From Candidatus Methanoperedens sp. (GTDB taxonomy: Archaea > Halobacteriota > Methanosarcinia > Methanosarcinales > Methanoperedenaceae): DNA of 64,000 nt. The DNA is taken from contig JAPZAS010000035.1 in NCBI GenBank assembly GCA_027460525.1, positions 1-64,000 of the forward strand, given 5' to 3'. Both the position numbers and the translations under genes were made by a program. Shown piece after piece: positions 5,523 to 47,986 of the stretch. The notes under the pieces were generated by a model. It was not told the origin of the DNA and did no database searches. It saw only the letters and a program-made list of their open reading frames with translations. Each line of letters begins with the position of its first letter. Within the stretch, counting starts at the first letter, position 1.

Positions 5523-7712
5523 TTAGGGACTTATGAAATCGCTCGGTTTTGGCATTTCAAGTTTAAGTCCTCTCCTCTGCCTGATGCTCATCACGACTTC
5601 ATTGAGCATGTTCCCAGGCACGGGTTCGAATCCCGCAAATTCCGTGCTCCACAGGGCTCTGCCTTCGGTTGCGGAGCGTATATCTCCTGAAAACCCGAAC
5701 AATTGCGCAACAGGCGCCTTGGCTTCGATAATCGTGGTGTCGCCTTCTGATTTCATATCGAGTATAGCGCCGCGCCTTCCCTGAATCTCGCGCATCGCAC
5801 CCCCCATCTGGTCCTGGGGCACGTGAATAAACACTTTCTGGAATGGTTCAAGCAGCGTCGCACCCGCCATGAGCATTGCAGCCTGGATAGCCTGTCTTGA
5901 TGCAGGTATCACCTGAGCAGGTCCTCTGTGCACGGCATCTTCATGAAGTTTGGCATCCATCAATTTTACCTTAACTCCCATGACCGGCTCTCTGGACATC
6001 GGTCCTGCCTTCATGACTTCCTCAAAGCCTTCGAGAACGAGTTCCATAGTTTCATGCAGGTACTGGATGCCTTTGGTCATGTCGATGAAGATATTGGTCT
6101 CGTAGATATGGGTTATTCCCTTGGCTTCATCCTTGGTCATGCCAGCTTTCAACATGATATCCCTGCGTTCCACTTCCTGCTGCCTCATTGATATTTCATT
6201 ATTTTTTATTAGTTCTATTACAGCAGGCGACAACGGTTCAACTTCCATGTAGAACTTATTATGGCGGTTGGGAGACTTACCTTCCACAGGTCCGGCGTGG
6301 CCCTGGACAGTTTCCCTGTAAACCACAATGGGTTTTGAGGTGGTGATCTCAACGTGCTTGTCGCGCTGGATGCGGTGAGCCACGATCTCAAGATGCAGTT
6401 CACCCATTCCAGCCAGCAGATGCTCTCCAGTCTCCTGGTTGATCATTACTTTAAGCGTGGGGTCTTCCTTTGCGACCTGCCTTAATACTTCAACGAGTTT
6501 GGGGAGGTCTTTCATGTGTTTTGCTTCCACAGCTACTGTCATAACCGGTTCGCTGACATGCCTTATGCTCTCAAAAGGCGTCATACTCTTTTCAGTGGAC
6601 GCTGTCGAGCCTACGATAGCATCGGAAAGACCTGTTAATGCAATAATGTTGCCTGCAGTGACCTTTTCGACCTCGATACGCTCAGGACCCATGAAAAGCC
6701 CTACCGACTGTACCCTGTTCGGGTTTGGCATTCCTGAGATGTAAAGTTCTTTGCCGCGCTCGATTGTTCCTGAGAAAAGTCTTCCACTGGCTACCTCGCC
6801 CGCATGCGGGTCTGTGGTGATGTCCGTTACCATGAGGGCTACTTTGCCATTTGGATCTACGTTTATCATGGATTTTCCGATTTCACTTTCCTTATCGCCG
6901 TGCCAGATAACCTTGATTCTCTCTTTCTGTGCCTGAATCGGATTGGGCAGGAATCGTATAATCATATCGTTCATCACGGCACTGAGAGGTGCTTTTTCTG
7001 CAAGTTCCTTCTGGTTATCAGCCTGGCAGTATTCGATTACTTCCTTAAAACCGATGCCTGTCTTTTTCATGAAAGGAACGCTGATTGCCCAGTTGTTGAG
7101 TGCTGAACCAAATGCCACTTTCCCGGTAGCGGCGTCAAGTCGTAACTCGTCGTAACTATCAGGTTTCATACCTTTTATCAATTTATTGATTTTATCAATC
7201 ACTGCCCCCAGGCGCATCTGCATATCCTGGGGCGTGAGCTTTAACTCGTTGATAAGCCTGTCAACCTTGTTAATAAAAAGTATGGGTTTTACGTTCTCAC
7301 GCAGCGCCTGGCGCAGTACCGTCTCGGTCTGAGGCATCGCTCCTTCCACTGCGTCCACCAGTACCACGGCGCCGTCCACAGCCCTCATGGCGCGCGTAAC
7401 GTCGCCGCCGAAGTCAACGTGTCCTGGCGTGTCGATAAGGTTGATGAGATATTCCTTGCCCTCAAACTCGTGCACCATCGAAACCGTGGCTGCATCGATG
7501 GTTATTCCGCGTTTTTGTTCTTCCTCGTCAAAGTCCATGAATAACTGCTCGCCTGCCAGCTCTTTTGAAATCATGCCTGCGCCGGCGAGTAGATTATCGG
7601 AGAATGTTGTTTTACCGTGGTCTATATGTGCAACCGTACCGATGTTTCGGATAAACTCAGGTTTATCCATCAGCGCAGTCACACGTTCGACCATTTTCTT
7701 TCTTTTGCCCAT
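5523..7712 (-). CDS. fusA: Translation elongation factor EF-2
   Basis: A 729-residue translocase GTPase with [14 protein letters not shown] and NKVD motifs near the N-terminus. The 'DAVHRGPAQ' loop near the C-terminus is where archaea modify His to diphthamide. The length is typical of archaeal EF-2. GAGGT lies just upstream of the ATG and a TATA box about 50 bp upstream, so fusA is the first gene of this transcript. rps12 and rps7, which precede it in many euryarchaea, are absent here. Confidence 0.97.
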
Positions 7713-10187: not shown

Positions 10188-10383
10188 CTATAAACCTTCC
10201 TCACCAGCAGCGCAATTCTGCGTGGAAATGTATTTCTCAACCACTTCCCAGCCCTGCCCGACCGGGCCATGATAGCAGCCGGGAGCCCAGAGATGACCTT
10301 CACACCATTCCCTGAGATGCGGAAATTCCTGTCTCTATATCCTGCTTGATCTTCCTTTGATTTTCTTAGCGAAAATGGGTGCA
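10188..10383 (-). pseudogene. IS200/IS605-family TnpA transposase remnant
   Basis: Read leftward in one frame from about 10383, the translation gives 'FAKKIKGRSSRI', a stop, then 'EFPHLREWCEGHLWAPGCY' and 'GQGWEVVEKYISTQN', ending at a TAG at 10188. This is the characteristic C-terminal half of Y1 HUH transposases of the IS200/IS605 family, including the 'GHLWAPGCY' segment. The N-terminal half with the HUH motif is missing and there is an in-frame stop, so the copy is dead. Two other frames across this interval look like short genes but are shadows of this relic. Confidence 0.7.
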
Positions 10384-21665: not shown

Positions 21666-21757
21666 GATGACCCCGTCTAAAAAAGATGAGTATCATTGGG
21701 TTCATCAAACTTTGATGAACCCGTCTAAAAGAATAGTATAATAATGGGTTCATCAAA
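21666..21757 (+). repeat. Two back-to-back palindromes in the fni leader
   Basis: Unit 1 (21666-21709) pairs GATGACCCC with GGGTTCATC, imperfectly. Unit 2 (21711-21757) pairs TTTGATGAACCC with GGGTTCATCAAA, 12 bp perfect. The junction, GGGTTCATCAAA-c-TTTGATGAACCC (21698-21722), is itself a perfect palindrome, so alternative folds are possible. Each unit has CGTCTAAAA in its loop. A third unit is at 29849. Confidence 0.8.
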
Positions 21758-22915: not shown

Positions 22916-24253
22916 ATGACAGAAATAGGAATTATTGCAGTCGGCGGCTACAATGAAATGGGCAGGAACATGACCGGGATAAGGATTGATAATGATATCA
23001 TTGTTCTGGATATGGGACTGCAGCTGGACAGGGTGCAGATACATGAAGACGTGGAAATAGACAAAATGCACTCGATGGACCTGATAAAGATAGGTGCCAT
23101 TCCTGACGATACAGTCATGAAAGAAGTAAGCGGAAGCGTCAAAGCCATCGTATGCACGCACGGTCACCTCGACCATATCGGGGCAATACCGAAACTTGCG
23201 CACAGGTACAAAGCACCTATAATCGCAACTCCTTATACAGCGGAACTGGTCAGGCATGAGATATCCGAGGAAAAGAAATTTAAGGTAACAAATGAAGTAA
23301 TTCCCCTGAGGCTCGGGGGAACATATAACCTCACCCCTGATATACAGATCGAATTCATCAGGATACAGCACAGCATAGTGGATTCGGCTTTTGCTGCAAT
23401 CCACACACCGGGTGGGGTAGTTTTGTATGCCAGCGACTTCAAACTGGACAGGACGCCAACTTTGGGCGAACCACCAGACTTCCAGAGGCTCAGAAAACTT
23501 GGAAAAGAAGGCGTCAGGGCTATGATAACCGAAAGTACGAATTCAGGACTCTCAGGGAAGACGCCCTCGGAGCAAATAGCAAAAGACCTGGTGCGAGACG
23601 TTTTACTTGGAACAGAGGAGACCGATTCAGGTGTCCTGATTACCACATTCTCATCCCATGTGGCACGCATTAAAGCTATCATTGAGGCTGCAGAGGAAAT
23701 GAACAGGATCCCGGTACTTCTTGGCAGGTCCATGGAGCGCTATCTTTCAATAGCCGAGAAGATGAATTATATAAAATTCCCTGAAAATCTTGAAATTCAC
23801 GGCAACCGAAATGCCGTTGAAAAAGCCCTGAGGCGCATATCCCAGGATGGGAAGAAAAAATACCTCCTTATAACCACGGGTCATCAGGGCGAACCCGATT
23901 CCATTCTCACAAGGATAGCAAACCTGGAGACGCAGTTCAAGATAGAGCCAGGGGATAAGGTGATTTTCTCGGCGAACACAATCCCGAGCCCCATGACGAT
24001 GGCGAACCGGCATGCCCTTGAGATAAAATTGAAAATGCAGGGAGCACGAATATATGAAAATGTGCATGTGTCAGGGCATGCGAGCAGGGAAGACCACTGG
24101 GAACTCCTGAGGATGATATCTCCAGAGCAGGTGATACCGTCTCATGGGAACATGACCATGCATGCAAGCTATGTCGAAATGGCTGAGGATGCAGGATACG
24201 TTTTCGGGGATACTGTGCATATAATGAGAAACGGTGAGGAGATGGTTTTATAA
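22916..24253 (+). CDS. rnj: Archaeal ribonuclease J
   Basis: A 445-residue beta-CASP metallo-beta-lactamase nuclease. The metal motif 'THGHLDHIGAIPK' is at about 81-93, with further MBL motifs 'RIQHSIVDSAFAA' and 'YASDFKLD', the beta-CASP insertion, and the C-terminal 'HVSGHASREDHWELL' and 'SHGN' motifs. aRNase J is a 5'-3' exoribonuclease in mRNA turnover. Its position inside the isoprenoid cluster, between fni and idsA, is a known euryarchaeal arrangement. GGAGTG precedes the ATG. Confidence 0.94.
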   Translation: MTEIGIIAVGGYNEMGRNMTGIRIDNDIIVLDMGLQLDRVQIHEDVEIDKMHSMDLIKIGAIPDDTVMKEVSGSVKAIVCTHGHLDHIGAIPKLAHRYKAPIIATPYTAELVRHEISEEKKFKVTNEVIPLRLGGTYNLTPDIQIEFIRIQHSIVDSAFAAIHTPGGVVLYASDFKLDRTPTLGEPPDFQRLRKLGKEGVRAMITESTNSGLSGKTPSEQIAKDLVRDVLLGTEETDSGVLITTFSSHVARIKAIIEAAEEMNRIPVLLGRSMERYLSIAEKMNYIKFPENLEIHGNRNAVEKALRRISQDGKKKYLLITTGHQGEPDSILTRIANLETQFKIEPGDKVIFSANTIPSPMTMANRHALEIKLKMQGARIYENVHVSGHASREDHWELLRMISPEQVIPSHGNMTMHASYVEMAEDAGYVFGDTVHIMRNGEEMVL

Positions 24254-24540
24254 AAAACTTTAGGAAAGTTTTATCAAGGAACTTTGGGAAAGTTCCATCA
24301 AACGAGGGGTATGCTTTGCATACCCCAACACAGCGTGAACCGATGTTTCGGTTCTCAAACGACGGGTATGGCGCACCATACCCGAACACGCCCTCCCGAG
24401 GCGTGACTCGGGAAGGGTATGCTTCGCATACCCTATGCATCATAAAGCGAGGCGTCGCTAAAACTTTAGGAAAGTTTTATCAAACGACAGGTATGCGAAG
24501 CATACCTGAACACCGGCTAAAGCGAGGTCTCGCTTTATGA
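24254..24540 (+). repeat. Array of about ten short palindromes between RNase J and idsA
   Basis: The whole intergenic stretch is made of hairpin-forming units: AAAACTTTAGGAAAGTTTT (24256 and 24460), GGAACTTT-ggg-AAAGTTCC (24278), GGGGTATGC-ttt-GCATACCCC (24306), GAACCGA-tgt-TCGGTTC (24337), GGGTATGG-cgca-CCATACCC (24364), CCCGAG-gcgtga-CTCGGG (24395), GGGTATGC-tt-GCATACCC (24415), AGGTATGC-gaa-GCATACCT (24490) and AAAGCGAG-gt-CTCGCTTT (24519). The last abuts the idsA ATG. A sister array is at 47240-47449, in the same orientation relative to transcription. Confidence 0.9.
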
Positions 24541-25499
24541 TCGAAGAAATCCTGCAGCAAAAAGCCAAAATGGTGGATGAAGCCATCCCCAGATTCCTGC
24601 CCATAACCCCGCCTGATGAGATGTATAAAGCCATGCGCCACCTGCTGGATGCTGGGGGAAAGAGGCTTCGCCCTTCTGCACTGCTGCTGGCAACAGAAGC
24701 CGTCGGGGGCAAGCCTGAAAATGTACTTCCTGCGGCAGTGGCTATCGAATTGATACATAATTTCACGTTGATCCACGATGACATCATGGACGAGGCTGAC
24801 CTTCGAAGAGGGCTTGCGACGGTACATAAAAAATGGGGTGTGTCGGGAGCGATAGTTGCAGGGGATGCCCTTTATTCAAAGGCTTTTGAGATTCTTTCGT
24901 GCACAAAAAGCGAGCCTTCGCAGCTTGTGGAAAGCCTTGAACTTATGTCGAAAACGTGCACGGATATATGCGAGGGGCAGTGGATGGATATGAATTTCCA
25001 GACCCGAAAAGATGTGACAGAGGCAGAATACATGCGCATGGTGGAGAAAAAAACCGCCGTGCTTTTTGCCAGCGCCGTGAAAATGGGGGCGATATTATCT
25101 GGCGCCAATCGGGATTATGTGCGGGCGTTATGGGATTTCGGGCGCCTGACAGGGGTTGGATTCCAGATTTACGACGATGTGATTGACCTTATAACGCCTG
25201 AGGGGATACTCGGGAAAGCGCAGGGCGGGGATATTATTGAAGGCAAGCGTACGCTTATTGTTATCCATGCGCTCTCAAAAGGGGTCAGTATTGATGCGCT
25301 TGGGAAAAGCAATGCCACACGAAGCGAGGTTTCGGCAGCCTTGACTTCGATGAAAGAATCGGGTTCGATCGATTATGCCATGAACAAGGCTTTGAGTTTC
25401 GTGGAGGAAGGTAAAGCCGCGCTTAAGGTGCTGCCTGATTCTGAGGCAAAGAAGTTGCTTATCAGGGTTGCAGATTATATGATTGAGAGGAAGTACTAG
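24537..25499 (+). CDS. idsA: Bifunctional short-chain prenyl diphosphate synthase (FPP/GGPP synthase)
   Basis: A 320-residue trans-prenyltransferase. The first Asp-rich motif is 'LIHDDIMDEADLRRG' and the second 'YDDVIDLITP'; 'GGKRLRP' is the IPP-binding signature. It makes the C15/C20 prenyl diphosphates for archaeal ether lipids. The ATG directly follows a hairpin whose 5' arm and loop contain the only candidate ribosome-binding site (GAGGT, 24524-24528), so translation may depend on RNA folding. Confidence 0.95.
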   Translation: MIEEILQQKAKMVDEAIPRFLPITPPDEMYKAMRHLLDAGGKRLRPSALLLATEAVGGKPENVLPAAVAIELIHNFTLIHDDIMDEADLRRGLATVHKKWGVSGAIVAGDALYSKAFEILSCTKSEPSQLVESLELMSKTCTDICEGQWMDMNFQTRKDVTEAEYMRMVEKKTAVLFASAVKMGAILSGANRDYVRALWDFGRLTGVGFQIYDDVIDLITPEGILGKAQGGDIIEGKRTLIVIHALSKGVSIDALGKSNATRSEVSAALTSMKESGSIDYAMNKALSFVEEGKAALKVLPDSEAKKLLIRVADYMIERKY

Positions 25500-45886: not shown

Positions 45887-47242
45887 CTATTTTTCGAAAA
45901 ATCTCCTGAGAAACTTCCTGAATTCCTCATCCTTGACATCCAGTATCTTCTCATCTTCCAGTGCATGAAGCTCCTTTTTAATGCTCAACGCAAGATGCTT
46001 TCCCAGGCTGCAATTCAGGATTTCCGAATCTACAAGTTTCGGAGCCTCGTGATATTTCCTCGGGATCTCAACCATGTATTTCCCGTTCCGGATAAATACA
46101 TTGGAAAATGTGTTCGAATCCTTATATTTGGATTTGAATGCAAGAGCATGTTCTTTTGACCAGACAAAAGGACCGCCATGCTTCCTTACCAGCGGGAGCC
46201 TTGCAGTCTCAAGTTCAAACAGTACAATCGCTTTTTTATCAGAAGCCCACACGCTGCTGTTATACACGCAAAATTCGTATCTCTCGAACATCTCATTGAC
46301 GGAATATTCAAGCTTATGAAGCTGCGGGAATAATACATCCTCAACTACATCAGGCGCTTCAAGTTCAATGGCTATCAGTGATGTCCTTCTTGCGGCAAGG
46401 ATTTTCCTGAATTCATCATCCGAAAGCGGCTCTGGAACCTTCCTGGTGAAATAAGCCTCATCAGGATTTTCCAGGAACTCGCAGGCTTTATCCATAAAAA
46501 TGCACAGGTTATCAAGCGACAGCGCCGCAGCAACATTGCGCTGCGGGTCGGTAGGGTCAACCACGACCATGGGGTCATTGTGTGAAGCGGTACCGTGCTC
46601 TTCTATGTCAATGGTTATTCCAGGCTTCCAGTCGCGCGATGCTTCAAGAACCTTCATGAATGAGCCGTATTGAATTACAAGCAGTTCCACAAGATAGCCG
46701 GAAAAACCATGCGTCTTAAGCTCCGAGCCGTAGACGCCTGTTCCTTTCATGAACTGCTTTAACAGCAGCACCTCGTCCTCAAGTCCCTTGATCATGGAGG
46801 CAACGTAGATATTGTGGAAGGGTGTCCTGTCAACTGCGGATTTTATTTCCGAAGCGCGCTCCACGTTGAAAGCAGGGACAAGATCGACCTCGAAGCCGTC
46901 AACGACGGCATGGATGTAGGGATGCTCAGCATACCGCTCTTCAAAGCTCTGCGCATCCTGCGAGACTTTCCGTGCGACATAGAGCCCTTTTTCTTCAAGT
47001 TCCTCGCGTTCCAGGGAAGGAGGGAACATGATAAAAATATCAAGGTCGTGCTCTCCTGATATCCATGTTCCGCGCGCGGCAGAGCCCACGAGCTGTGCGC
47101 TGGCGCTGATGCCTTCCTGCTGTGCTGTGGAATTAACTCTGGCGATTATGCTTTCGGCAAGCGATGCGAGCCTGACTTTTTCTGCTTCGCCGGGTTTTAT
47201 GCGTGAAAGGATCGAGGCGCAGATTTTATTGATGGCGATCAT
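45887..47242 (-). CDS. cca: CCA-adding tRNA nucleotidyltransferase, archaeal class I
   Basis: A 451-residue enzyme that adds or repairs the 3' CCA of tRNA. The nucleotidyltransferase signature 'LVGSAARGTWISGEHDLDIF' (Gly-Ser and Asp-x-Asp) is near residue 48-67. The length is normal for archaeal Cca. The ATG at 47242 immediately follows, on its strand, the 3' arm of a palindrome (AAAGGG...CCCTTT-ATG). It is downstream of thpR, a common archaeal pairing, across a 207-bp palindrome array. Confidence 0.95.
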   Translation of the reverse strand: MIAINKICASILSRIKPGEAEKVRLASLAESIIARVNSTAQQEGISASAQLVGSAARGTWISGEHDLDIFIMFPPSLEREELEEKGLYVARKVSQDAQSFEERYAEHPYIHAVVDGFEVDLVPAFNVERASEIKSAVDRTPFHNIYVASMIKGLEDEVLLLKQFMKGTGVYGSELKTHGFSGYLVELLVIQYGSFMKVLEASRDWKPGITIDIEEHGTASHNDPMVVVDPTDPQRNVAAALSLDNLCIFMDKACEFLENPDEAYFTRKVPEPLSDDEFRKILAARRTSLIAIELEAPDVVEDVLFPQLHKLEYSVNEMFERYEFCVYNSSVWASDKKAIVLFELETARLPLVRKHGGPFVWSKEHALAFKSKYKDSNTFSNVFIRNGKYMVEIPRKYHEAPKLVDSEILNCSLGKHLALSIKKELHALEDEKILDVKDEEFRKFLRRFFEK

Positions 47243-47449
47243 AAAGGGTTACGCCCCTTTATGACGTATAGGGGTATCTGCGATACCCCTTGTTTTGATA
47301 AAACTTTCCTAAAGTTTTTCATAAAGGGTTACGCCCCTTTATGACGTATAGGGGATATTTTATATCCCCTTCCCGAGTCACGCCTCGGGAGGGCGTGTCC
47401 GGGTATGGCGCACCATACCCGTCGTTTGATAAAACTTTCTTAAAGTTTT
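47240..47449 (-). repeat. Array of short palindromes between thpR and cca
   Basis: Units in this array are CATAAAGGG-ttacgc-CCCTTTATG (47240-47263, again at 47320-47343), AGGGGTATC-tgc-GATACCCCT (47269), AAAACTTTCCTAAAGTTTT (47299, variant at 47431), GGGGATAT-ttt-ATATCCCC (47351), CCCGAG-tcacgc-CTCGGG (47371) and GGGTATGG-cgca-CCATACCC (47401). Several are exact reverse complements of units at 24254-24540, so both arrays have the same sense relative to their genes. A block of about 35 bp is directly repeated 80 bp apart. Confidence 0.9.
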
Positions 47450-47986
47450 TCATTGTAGTTTTATTTCCCTCAGTGTCTCATAAATCGGTCCCTTCGAGGT
47501 AAGCGTGCTTTTCTTTAAGGTTATGGACTCCACATTCATCGCGCCGAGGTCAATGTCTTCCAGTTTTTTTATTTTTTCAAGGAGCGCTGCCTTATCTTTG
47601 AGCTGCTTCACCCGCGCAAGCGTGGCATGCGGGGAAAACCTATCATCCTTTTCAAACTTGAAAGGCGAAAGTACTCGTTCAACCTCGCCATGCAGCGCCT
47701 CGAAATTCCCCTCGGCGCCGAGCCAGATGACCCTGATATAGGCAGGCTTCGGGAATATCCCGACTCCTTTAATCCTTGCGTCAAAAGGCTTGCAGTTAAT
47801 CTGAGATAGGGCGGATACAACGGGCTCGACGTTATCCTCGGAGATATCCCCCAGGAATTTCAGGGTTATATGTACCTGCGGGGGTTCTACGAGTTTGATG
47901 CCGGCTGTATCAAGCACGGATTCTATTCTTTCTATCTCAGGAATGAACCTGTCAGGCAATTCCACGGCTATGAACGTGCGCAACAT
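47450..47986 (-). CDS. thpR: RNA 2',3'-cyclic phosphodiesterase (LigT-like)
   Basis: A 178-residue 2H phosphoesterase. The two catalytic His-x-Thr motifs are 'HITLKFLGDI' and 'HATLARVKQ'. It hydrolyses 2',3'-cyclic phosphates on RNA ends. It starts MLRTFIAVELPDRF, typical of the family. Neighbouring cca suggests a tRNA-end processing context. Its stop is followed directly by the palindrome array. Confidence 0.94.
   Translation of the reverse strand: MLRTFIAVELPDRFIPEIERIESVLDTAGIKLVEPPQVHITLKFLGDISEDNVEPVVSALSQINCKPFDARIKGVGIFPKPAYIRVIWLGAEGNFEALHGEVERVLSPFKFEKDDRFSPHATLARVKQLKDKAALLEKIKKLEDIDLGAMNVESITLKKSTLTSKGPIYETLREIKLQ

Follow-up and report, generated by a model that had tools for sequence, protein, structure and literature searches.

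The window, by which we mean the whole 64,000-nt stretch of Candidatus Methanoperedens DNA that was analysed, carries on its minus strand thpR (47450-47986), encoding a 2'-5' RNA ligase of the LigT family (Pfam LigT_PEase 1.4e-29, 2_5_RNA_ligase2 7.6e-16), and cca (45887-47242), encoding the archaeal CCA-adding enzyme (Pfam tRNA_NucTransf2 2.8e-44, CAA_C 5.1e-39). Between the two genes lies an array of eight perfect hairpins with conserved spacers (47239-47453, minus strand), which also forms two cistrons of 44 and 27 codons chained by ATGA (MKNFKKVLSNDGYGAPYPDTPSRGVTREGDIKYPLYVIKGRNPL and MKNFRKVLSKQGVSQIPLYVIKGRNPL). Micro-cistron 1 (47319-47453, minus strand, ATG to TGA, 44 aa), delimited by its open reading frame and palindromes, begins in the ATGA at 47450-47453, where the TGA stop of thpR overlaps its ATG, and contains the hairpins AAAACTTT..AAAGTTTT, CGGGTATGG..CCATACCCG, TCCCGAG..CTCGGGA, AGGGGATAT..ATATCCCCT and TCATAAAGGG..CCCTTTATGA. 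Micro-cistron 2 (47239-47322, minus strand, ATG to TGA, 27 aa) is a canonical 80-nt unit and one row of the 32-unit alignment described below; it contains AAAACTTT..AAAGTTTT, AGGGGTATC..GATACCCCT and TCATAAAGGG..CCCTTTATGA, and its TGA overlaps the ATG of cca. The sequence TCATAAAGGG-ttacgc-CCCTTTATGA is present twice, at 47239-47264 and 47319-47344, 80 bp apart and identical at 36 of 36 positions in a repeat search, and the segment between both copies includes CCCGAG-tcacgc-CTCGGG and GGGTATGG-cgca-CCATACCC.

A sister array with ten strong hairpins (24250-24540, plus strand; sequence, palindromes and frame check) lies between the gene of an RNase J-like beta-CASP protein (22916-24253, plus strand; Pfam RNase_J_b_CASP 3e-26), whose stop is the TAA of an ATAA at 24250-24253, and an idsA-like polyprenyl (geranylgeranyl) diphosphate synthase gene (24537-25499, plus strand; Pfam polyprenyl_synt 1.1e-73). 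It is open for 96 codons, from the ATA at 24250 to a TGA overlapping the idsA ATG at 24537; that the left ATG is replaced by ATA, with the frame open nonetheless, counts against the interpretation favoured below. Read along the genes, both arrays begin with AAAACTTT-nnn-AAAGTTTT-ATCAA and end in a hairpin whose 3' arm enters the start codon (..CCCTTTATG or ..CGCTTTATG). In the 64 kb window there are 49 perfect palindromes whose arms are 7 or longer, 18 of them within the two arrays (~0.5 kb), and mononucleotide shuffles of the whole window gave 31, 23 and 24.

The initial annotation had described the units of the thpR-cca array, with TCATAAAGGG..CCCTTTATGA twice at a distance of 80 bp, and is accurate on the sequence. 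Its statement that both arrays share the same units, order and sense is borne out by a comparison along the genes with 24254-24536, in which the spacers match too, and the placing against the start codons is indeed alike. Its account of the array as hairpins between genes holds, but it overlooked both the open frame (44 + 27 codons) and the bare ATGA of the empty junction.

A dispersed family of covarying hairpins

The two arrays belong to a multicopy family. A 26-nt unit pattern, allowing up to 3 mismatches, was found at 46 places in the 2.44 Mb genome of the window (0 for the backwards control) and is present in 21 of the 34 genomes of the taxonomic family. Within the order, 17 of 185 genomes contain a longer pattern. 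These are all Methanoperedens (genus g1), and none of the other 26 of the 27 genera scanned has it. The modules follow a common order, with one or more AAAACTTT hairpins, a GGTATG- or CGTATG-type hairpin, often a TCCCGAG hairpin and finally a terminal hairpin, which is either TCATAAAGGG..CCCTTTATGA or CATAAAGCGA..TCGCTTTATG. Other copies in the window's genome precede genes for argininosuccinate lyase, aIF2-beta, NurA, an HhH-GPD glycosylase and geranylgeranyl reductase, among others. Since these host genes are unrelated, RNase J and ThpR are chance neighbours, and the functional tie to one or the other, which had been suggested from the window alone, was rejected as unsupported.

Covariation was assessed in 32 aligned 84-nt units, obtained from 33 80-nt units by leaving out L137 and L285, which are in another register, and adding the unit of the window. 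In this alignment, 98.1% of the cells were paired and 82 cells had changed on both sides, compared with 27 in shuffles (0/500 as high) and 0-20 when the partners were slid by one to three columns. The hairpins covary and have therefore been kept as hairpins. At gathering score, Rfam had no match in the window, and a viral contig collection had no exact match to one element pattern. Among open-licence PMC papers, the literature on Methanoperedens palindromes, miniature inverted repeats and ATGA overlaps contained no title on such an element, and the available portion of a paper on Borg tandem repeats (PMC9879509) describes nothing of the kind.

Junctions with and without an array

The arrays are flanked by ATGA or a variant of it on the left and by ATGA on the right. 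At the thpR-cca junction, 3 of 10 Methanoperedens-type relatives (L048, L055 and L056, by eye) have a bare ATGA overlap and no array. The RNase J-idsA junction was surveyed in 28 of 30 loci, the remaining two having no RNase J in the locus, and a bare overlap was found in 8 of the 28 loci with both genes, once as GTGA. Two of the eight belong to the sister genus (L201, L202), and another is G015, the closest genome, grouped with that of the window at 100/97 support in a tree of 28 genomes; since its close relatives carry the array with the ATAA left end, G015 probably lost the array or acquired an allele without it. Because array-free orthologous junctions consist of just the ATGA overlap, the array is an insertion bounded by ATGA on either side.

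The idea that the RNase J-idsA junction was filled just once, in an ancestor, was rejected, as the open-element state and the empty state each require 5 changes on the tree of 28 genomes. Considering the starred branches of this tree, at least 5 open-element and 3 empty-state changes are forced, a pattern that allows for gains, losses or exchange. At a third site, upstream of a winged-helix gene, 16 of 28 loci have the start at -1 relative to the upstream stop, and 11 of the 28 contain an insert or what remains of one (row counts). In L177-L184, the RNase J and idsA genes are separated by unrelated-looking ATGA-to-ATGA spacers of 42-47 nt, mostly with GGAG near the idsA start, which are possibly decayed older inserts that gained a ribosome-binding site.

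Across the family, arrays were compiled in a discovery set and in a held-out set of 100 regions, the latter comprising four further genomes, with G010 and G011 covered in part and about ten places omitted, mostly near contig ends. The right-hand ATGA starts an ORF of at least 60 codons in 36 of 45 discovery and 44 of 47 held-out arrays. Terminal-hairpin copies number 76 and 78 in the two sets, and 47 and 48 of these end at an ATG. For reference, 113 ATGAs in the window are free for insertion, 30 at gene starts and 83 wholly non-coding. Most ATGA-flanked copies are at a start codon, often exactly at the stop/start overlap of two operon genes.

Copies outside ATGA have mixed flanks (TCAA/TCAA, inverted flanks, or flanks within other repeats), which speaks against the favoured interpretation. 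Six non-ATGA copies (L120, L160, L165, L124, L132 and L133) are embedded in a different dispersed repeat and have ATCTGCG/ATCCGTG-like sequences on either side. In L119 (minus-strand copy at 5725) and L039 (5959), the copy is found between GGTTCATCAA and TTGATGAA-like flanks and thus occupies the loop of a GGGTTCATCAAACTTTGATGAACCC-type hairpin; GGGTTCATCAAACTTTGATGAACCC also occurs as a separate hairpin at 21698-21722 of the window. A different arrangement was observed in L031 (G000, contig 24; 1294-1650 and 1310-2062), with eight or so 36-nt repeats, each composed of hairpin 1 and a spacer. They are open as NFKKVLSKQEGL repeats and continuous with a 250-codon frame that is, by eye, GNAT acetyltransferase-like and for which no ATG start was seen.

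Open frames through the hairpins

The A of the left ATGA begins a frame (ATG AAA AAC TTT..) that crosses the hairpins and stops in the TGA of the right ATGA. The commonest form of the micro-cistron has 27 aa, with its TGA overlapping the ATG of the next gene. Of the 43 ATGA-ended discovery arrays, 30 are fully open, the thpR-cca array being counted as not open because it consists of two chained units; with the rules unchanged, 35 of 39 ATGA-flanked arrays of the held-out set are open. Arrays without a recognisable left junction (2/45 discovery and 8/47 held-out) stand outside the 43 and the 39, and clusters in which hairpin 1 reads backwards (11/101 and 6/98) were removed before the counts of length, ATG context, stops and GAGGT.

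Several features of the frame exceed what chance would give. Against an expectation of 1/3, distinct array lengths are 2 mod 3 in 13 of 16 held-out cases (p = 1.2e-4) and in 22 of 32 overall (p = 4.5e-5). Among arrays of in-frame length, 65 of 67 over both sets are open, compared with 9.5 expected when stems, loops and spacers are shuffled with pairing kept; array copies are related by descent, so that such counts are not independent trials, and a young copy may be open partly because its source was. Openness also depends on context, with 65 of 94 distinct cases open when the array ends at an ATG and 5 of 51 elsewhere. Moreover, the loop of hairpin 1 would give TAA or TAG one base over in 53 of 69 copies of the usual register, versus 1 of 12 in the shifted register, in which the first hairpin lies one base further from the ATG (p = 1e-5).

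At single sites the picture is more varied. Between RNase J and idsA, the 11 inserts that were assigned by reading as element-like (23-287 nt between the two ATGAs, some decayed beyond their hairpins) all have a length of 2 mod 3, and 10 are open, versus 1 of 9 of the other short spacers. At the winged-helix site only 4 of 11 inserts have an in-frame length, which counts against the favoured interpretation; of the other seven, four stop 16 nt and one stops 6 nt before the ATG, distances that may still permit some reinitiation. At a fourth site (HhH-GPD gene), 2 of the 5 inserts that were looked at keep the frame and are open.

From the left ATG, translation is predicted to end at +4 in 35 of the 39 held-out arrays; in 3 others it would end at -6 nt, and in the remaining 1 early. 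For the discovery arrays the corresponding numbers are 30 at +4, 3 at -6, 2 at -16, 2 reading on and 6 early, three of the latter being, by eye, tandem pairs in which unit 1 stops at or near the ATG of unit 2. In CCCTTTATGA-type copies the three frames would stop at +4, -6 or -16 nt from the next start, and thus reinitiation may be possible in all three. In addition, GAGGT is present 5' of the ATG, in the terminal hairpins, in 43 of 82 arrays (23/43 and 20/39). Just 5' of the ATG, this is presumably a Shine-Dalgarno motif, and the downstream gene might initiate on its own through it, as a second route to expression.

Interpretation and comparison with known systems

We consider it likely that the array represents one copy of a palindromic element that is dispersed in Methanoperedens, probably non-autonomous, inserted at ATGA, open-framed and tolerated as a translated, doubly overlapping cistron. 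The element would insert at an ATGA and leave ATGA on both sides. The left ATGA would retain the TGA stop of the upstream gene and give the insert an ATG, the insert would consist of one to several hairpin modules of 80 to about 290 nt with an open frame, and the right ATGA would supply both the TGA stop of the insert and the ATG of the downstream gene. A ribosome ending the upstream gene would then reinitiate on the insert, unfold the hairpins as it translates them, stop at the second ATGA and start once more on the downstream gene. In Haloferax, according to the available part of one study, reinitiation requires an overlap or a very short gap, and a gap of ~20 nt nearly abolishes coupling (PMC10666635). 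If an insert of 80-290 nt were not translated, the genes should therefore lose their coupling, while a translated insert overlapping both neighbours by ATGA should keep the coupling, which would account for the survival of open copies at start codons. The micro-cistrons are probably translated, and coupling is probably what selects for the open frame; the family has presumably spread by transposition, and the element appears to be mainly selfish rather than useful. An element that seeks start-codon ATGA sites and one that only survives there both agree with the data. Whether its niche is the stop/start overlap itself, where it would duplicate the ATGA, form a doubly overlapping micro-cistron and add 80-290 nt without breaking coupling, we regard as evenly balanced.

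Stop/start overlaps rank with the most frequent gene junctions of prokaryotes, and coupled translation should be lost when one of them receives an insert, a problem that these elements appear to solve by being translated. If this is true, the many copies and empty sites would be natural gene-by-gene tests of selection on coupling in an archaeon that is hard to manipulate, and would offer a route for tiny open reading frames to arise between operon genes. It would also explain a class of hairpin-rich gaps in Methanoperedens operons, which could be mistaken for regulators or terminators.

The same observations were weighed against other explanations. The strong covariation (82 double-sided changes, 0/500 shuffles as high) and the stable predicted fold of the thpR-cca array RNA (-98.6 kcal/mol, z = -9.9) would also suit a cis-acting RNA device, with the hairpins acting in the mRNA through processing, stability or control of the downstream start codon, as would the start codon inside the terminal stem and the GAGGT in or beside the loop in about half of the copies. 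However, neither open frames nor 2 mod 3 lengths would follow from such a device, more than a third of the terminal-hairpin copies are not at an ATG, the host genes are unrelated and the array is absent at many orthologous junctions; we regard it as unlikely. Rather more doubtful is a functional family of small proteins, of 27 to about 96 aa, encoded in operons with the hairpins being incidental. The frames are open and the N-terminus MKNF(R/K)KVLS is conserved, but identical modules are read in differing frames and give unrelated peptides (MKNFRKVLS, MKTLGKFYQ, MKKLYESFI), the middle hairpin slides by one base between the EGYALHTLY and EGVCAIPLY types, compensatory stem changes alter the peptide, and the micro-cistron peptides had no Pfam or NCBIfam match. 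As all three reading frames are used across the hairpins, it is unlikely that the peptide is the conserved feature.

Y1 (HUH) transposases cut at a tetranucleotide beside a hairpin, and a hairpin-ended element with a fixed adjoining tetranucleotide could derive from IS200/IS605 or REP/RAYT elements and be moved by such an enzyme. The window also contains a remnant of an IS200/IS605-type Y1 transposase (10218-10373, minus strand), which has a TAG inside it; no other Y1_Tnp match was found in the genome. Yet Y1_Tnp is absent from G029 despite its 43 pattern places, G016 lacks such places but has 10 Y1_Tnp matches, and hairpin 1 was nearby in 0 of 30 Y1 loci. With copy numbers disagreeing and the 30 loci lacking a nearby copy, Y1/HUH transposase was rejected as the mover, and we give this origin as little credence as the small-protein family. 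No other mobilising enzyme and no full-length partner transposon was found, and hairpin-1 clusters without a nearby end hairpin, inspected by eye over 420 nt each, showed no transposase-length insert between both ends that would represent an autonomous version. As hairpins between genes, the arrays might finally be taken for simple transcription terminators, which the initial annotation had rightly doubted, or the junctions for independent promoters. The sense-strand hairpins are not followed by a T run, the last one being followed by the start codon, the sole terminator-like match of the thpR-cca array is antisense, and neither the precise ATGA boundaries nor the open frames would be expected of terminators, which makes this explanation highly improbable.

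The inserted, translated element that we favour shares features with several known systems. Like MITEs, it is small, has no transposase gene and has a short duplicated target, since the junction is a bare ATGA when empty and has ATGA at both ends when filled; in contrast to MITEs, its ends (AAAACTTT and CGCTTT/CCCTTT) match in inverted orientation over only 3-4 nt. REP/REPIN sequences with RAYT are likewise intergenic hairpins that are dispersed and often arranged in tandem, whereas the Methanoperedens element has open frames and a copy number that does not follow Y1_Tnp. REP elements reportedly carry a GTAG tag at the hairpin foot, and neither a GTAG nor a CGTC tag was seen by eye at this position in the 32 aligned units. 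Known dyad-symmetric coding repeats, in some taxa tied to mobile elements, resemble the element as well, but in the descriptions available they are tandem protein domains in larger ORFs, with no placing at stop/start overlaps mentioned. As judged from sequence, what appears new relative to known coding palindromes is the separate cistron at a stop/start overlap.

In Haloferax, as far as the accessible parts of two studies report, ATGA-type overlaps couple translation by termination-reinitiation (PMC6728339, PMC10666635). The Methanoperedens arrays share this class of junction, as the start codon of the micro-cistron overlaps the upstream stop in an ATGA; however, the two Haloferax genes overlap directly, whereas in Methanoperedens a mobile micro-cistron would be threaded between them. 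Based on the available text of one paper, Rickettsia palindromic elements (RPEs) are in-frame fusions inside protein genes and have 12-bp terminal inverted repeats (PMC2229807). Like these, the Methanoperedens element is a short dispersed palindrome with an open frame compatible with host-gene translation. In one copy (L156 in G001, 1501 onward) it is even fused in frame as the N-terminus of a large protein, with a 500-codon frame from the element ATG and a 33-nt coding repeat. Unlike RPEs, it usually lies between two genes and forms a cistron of its own that overlaps each neighbour in an ATGA, its host is an archaeon, and terminal inverted repeats of ~12 bp are absent, the ends being AAAACTTT.. 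and ..CGCTTT or ..CCCTTT. Thus, within what that source describes, the element appears to work most like coding palindromic elements such as RPEs, and differs from them in place, ends and host.
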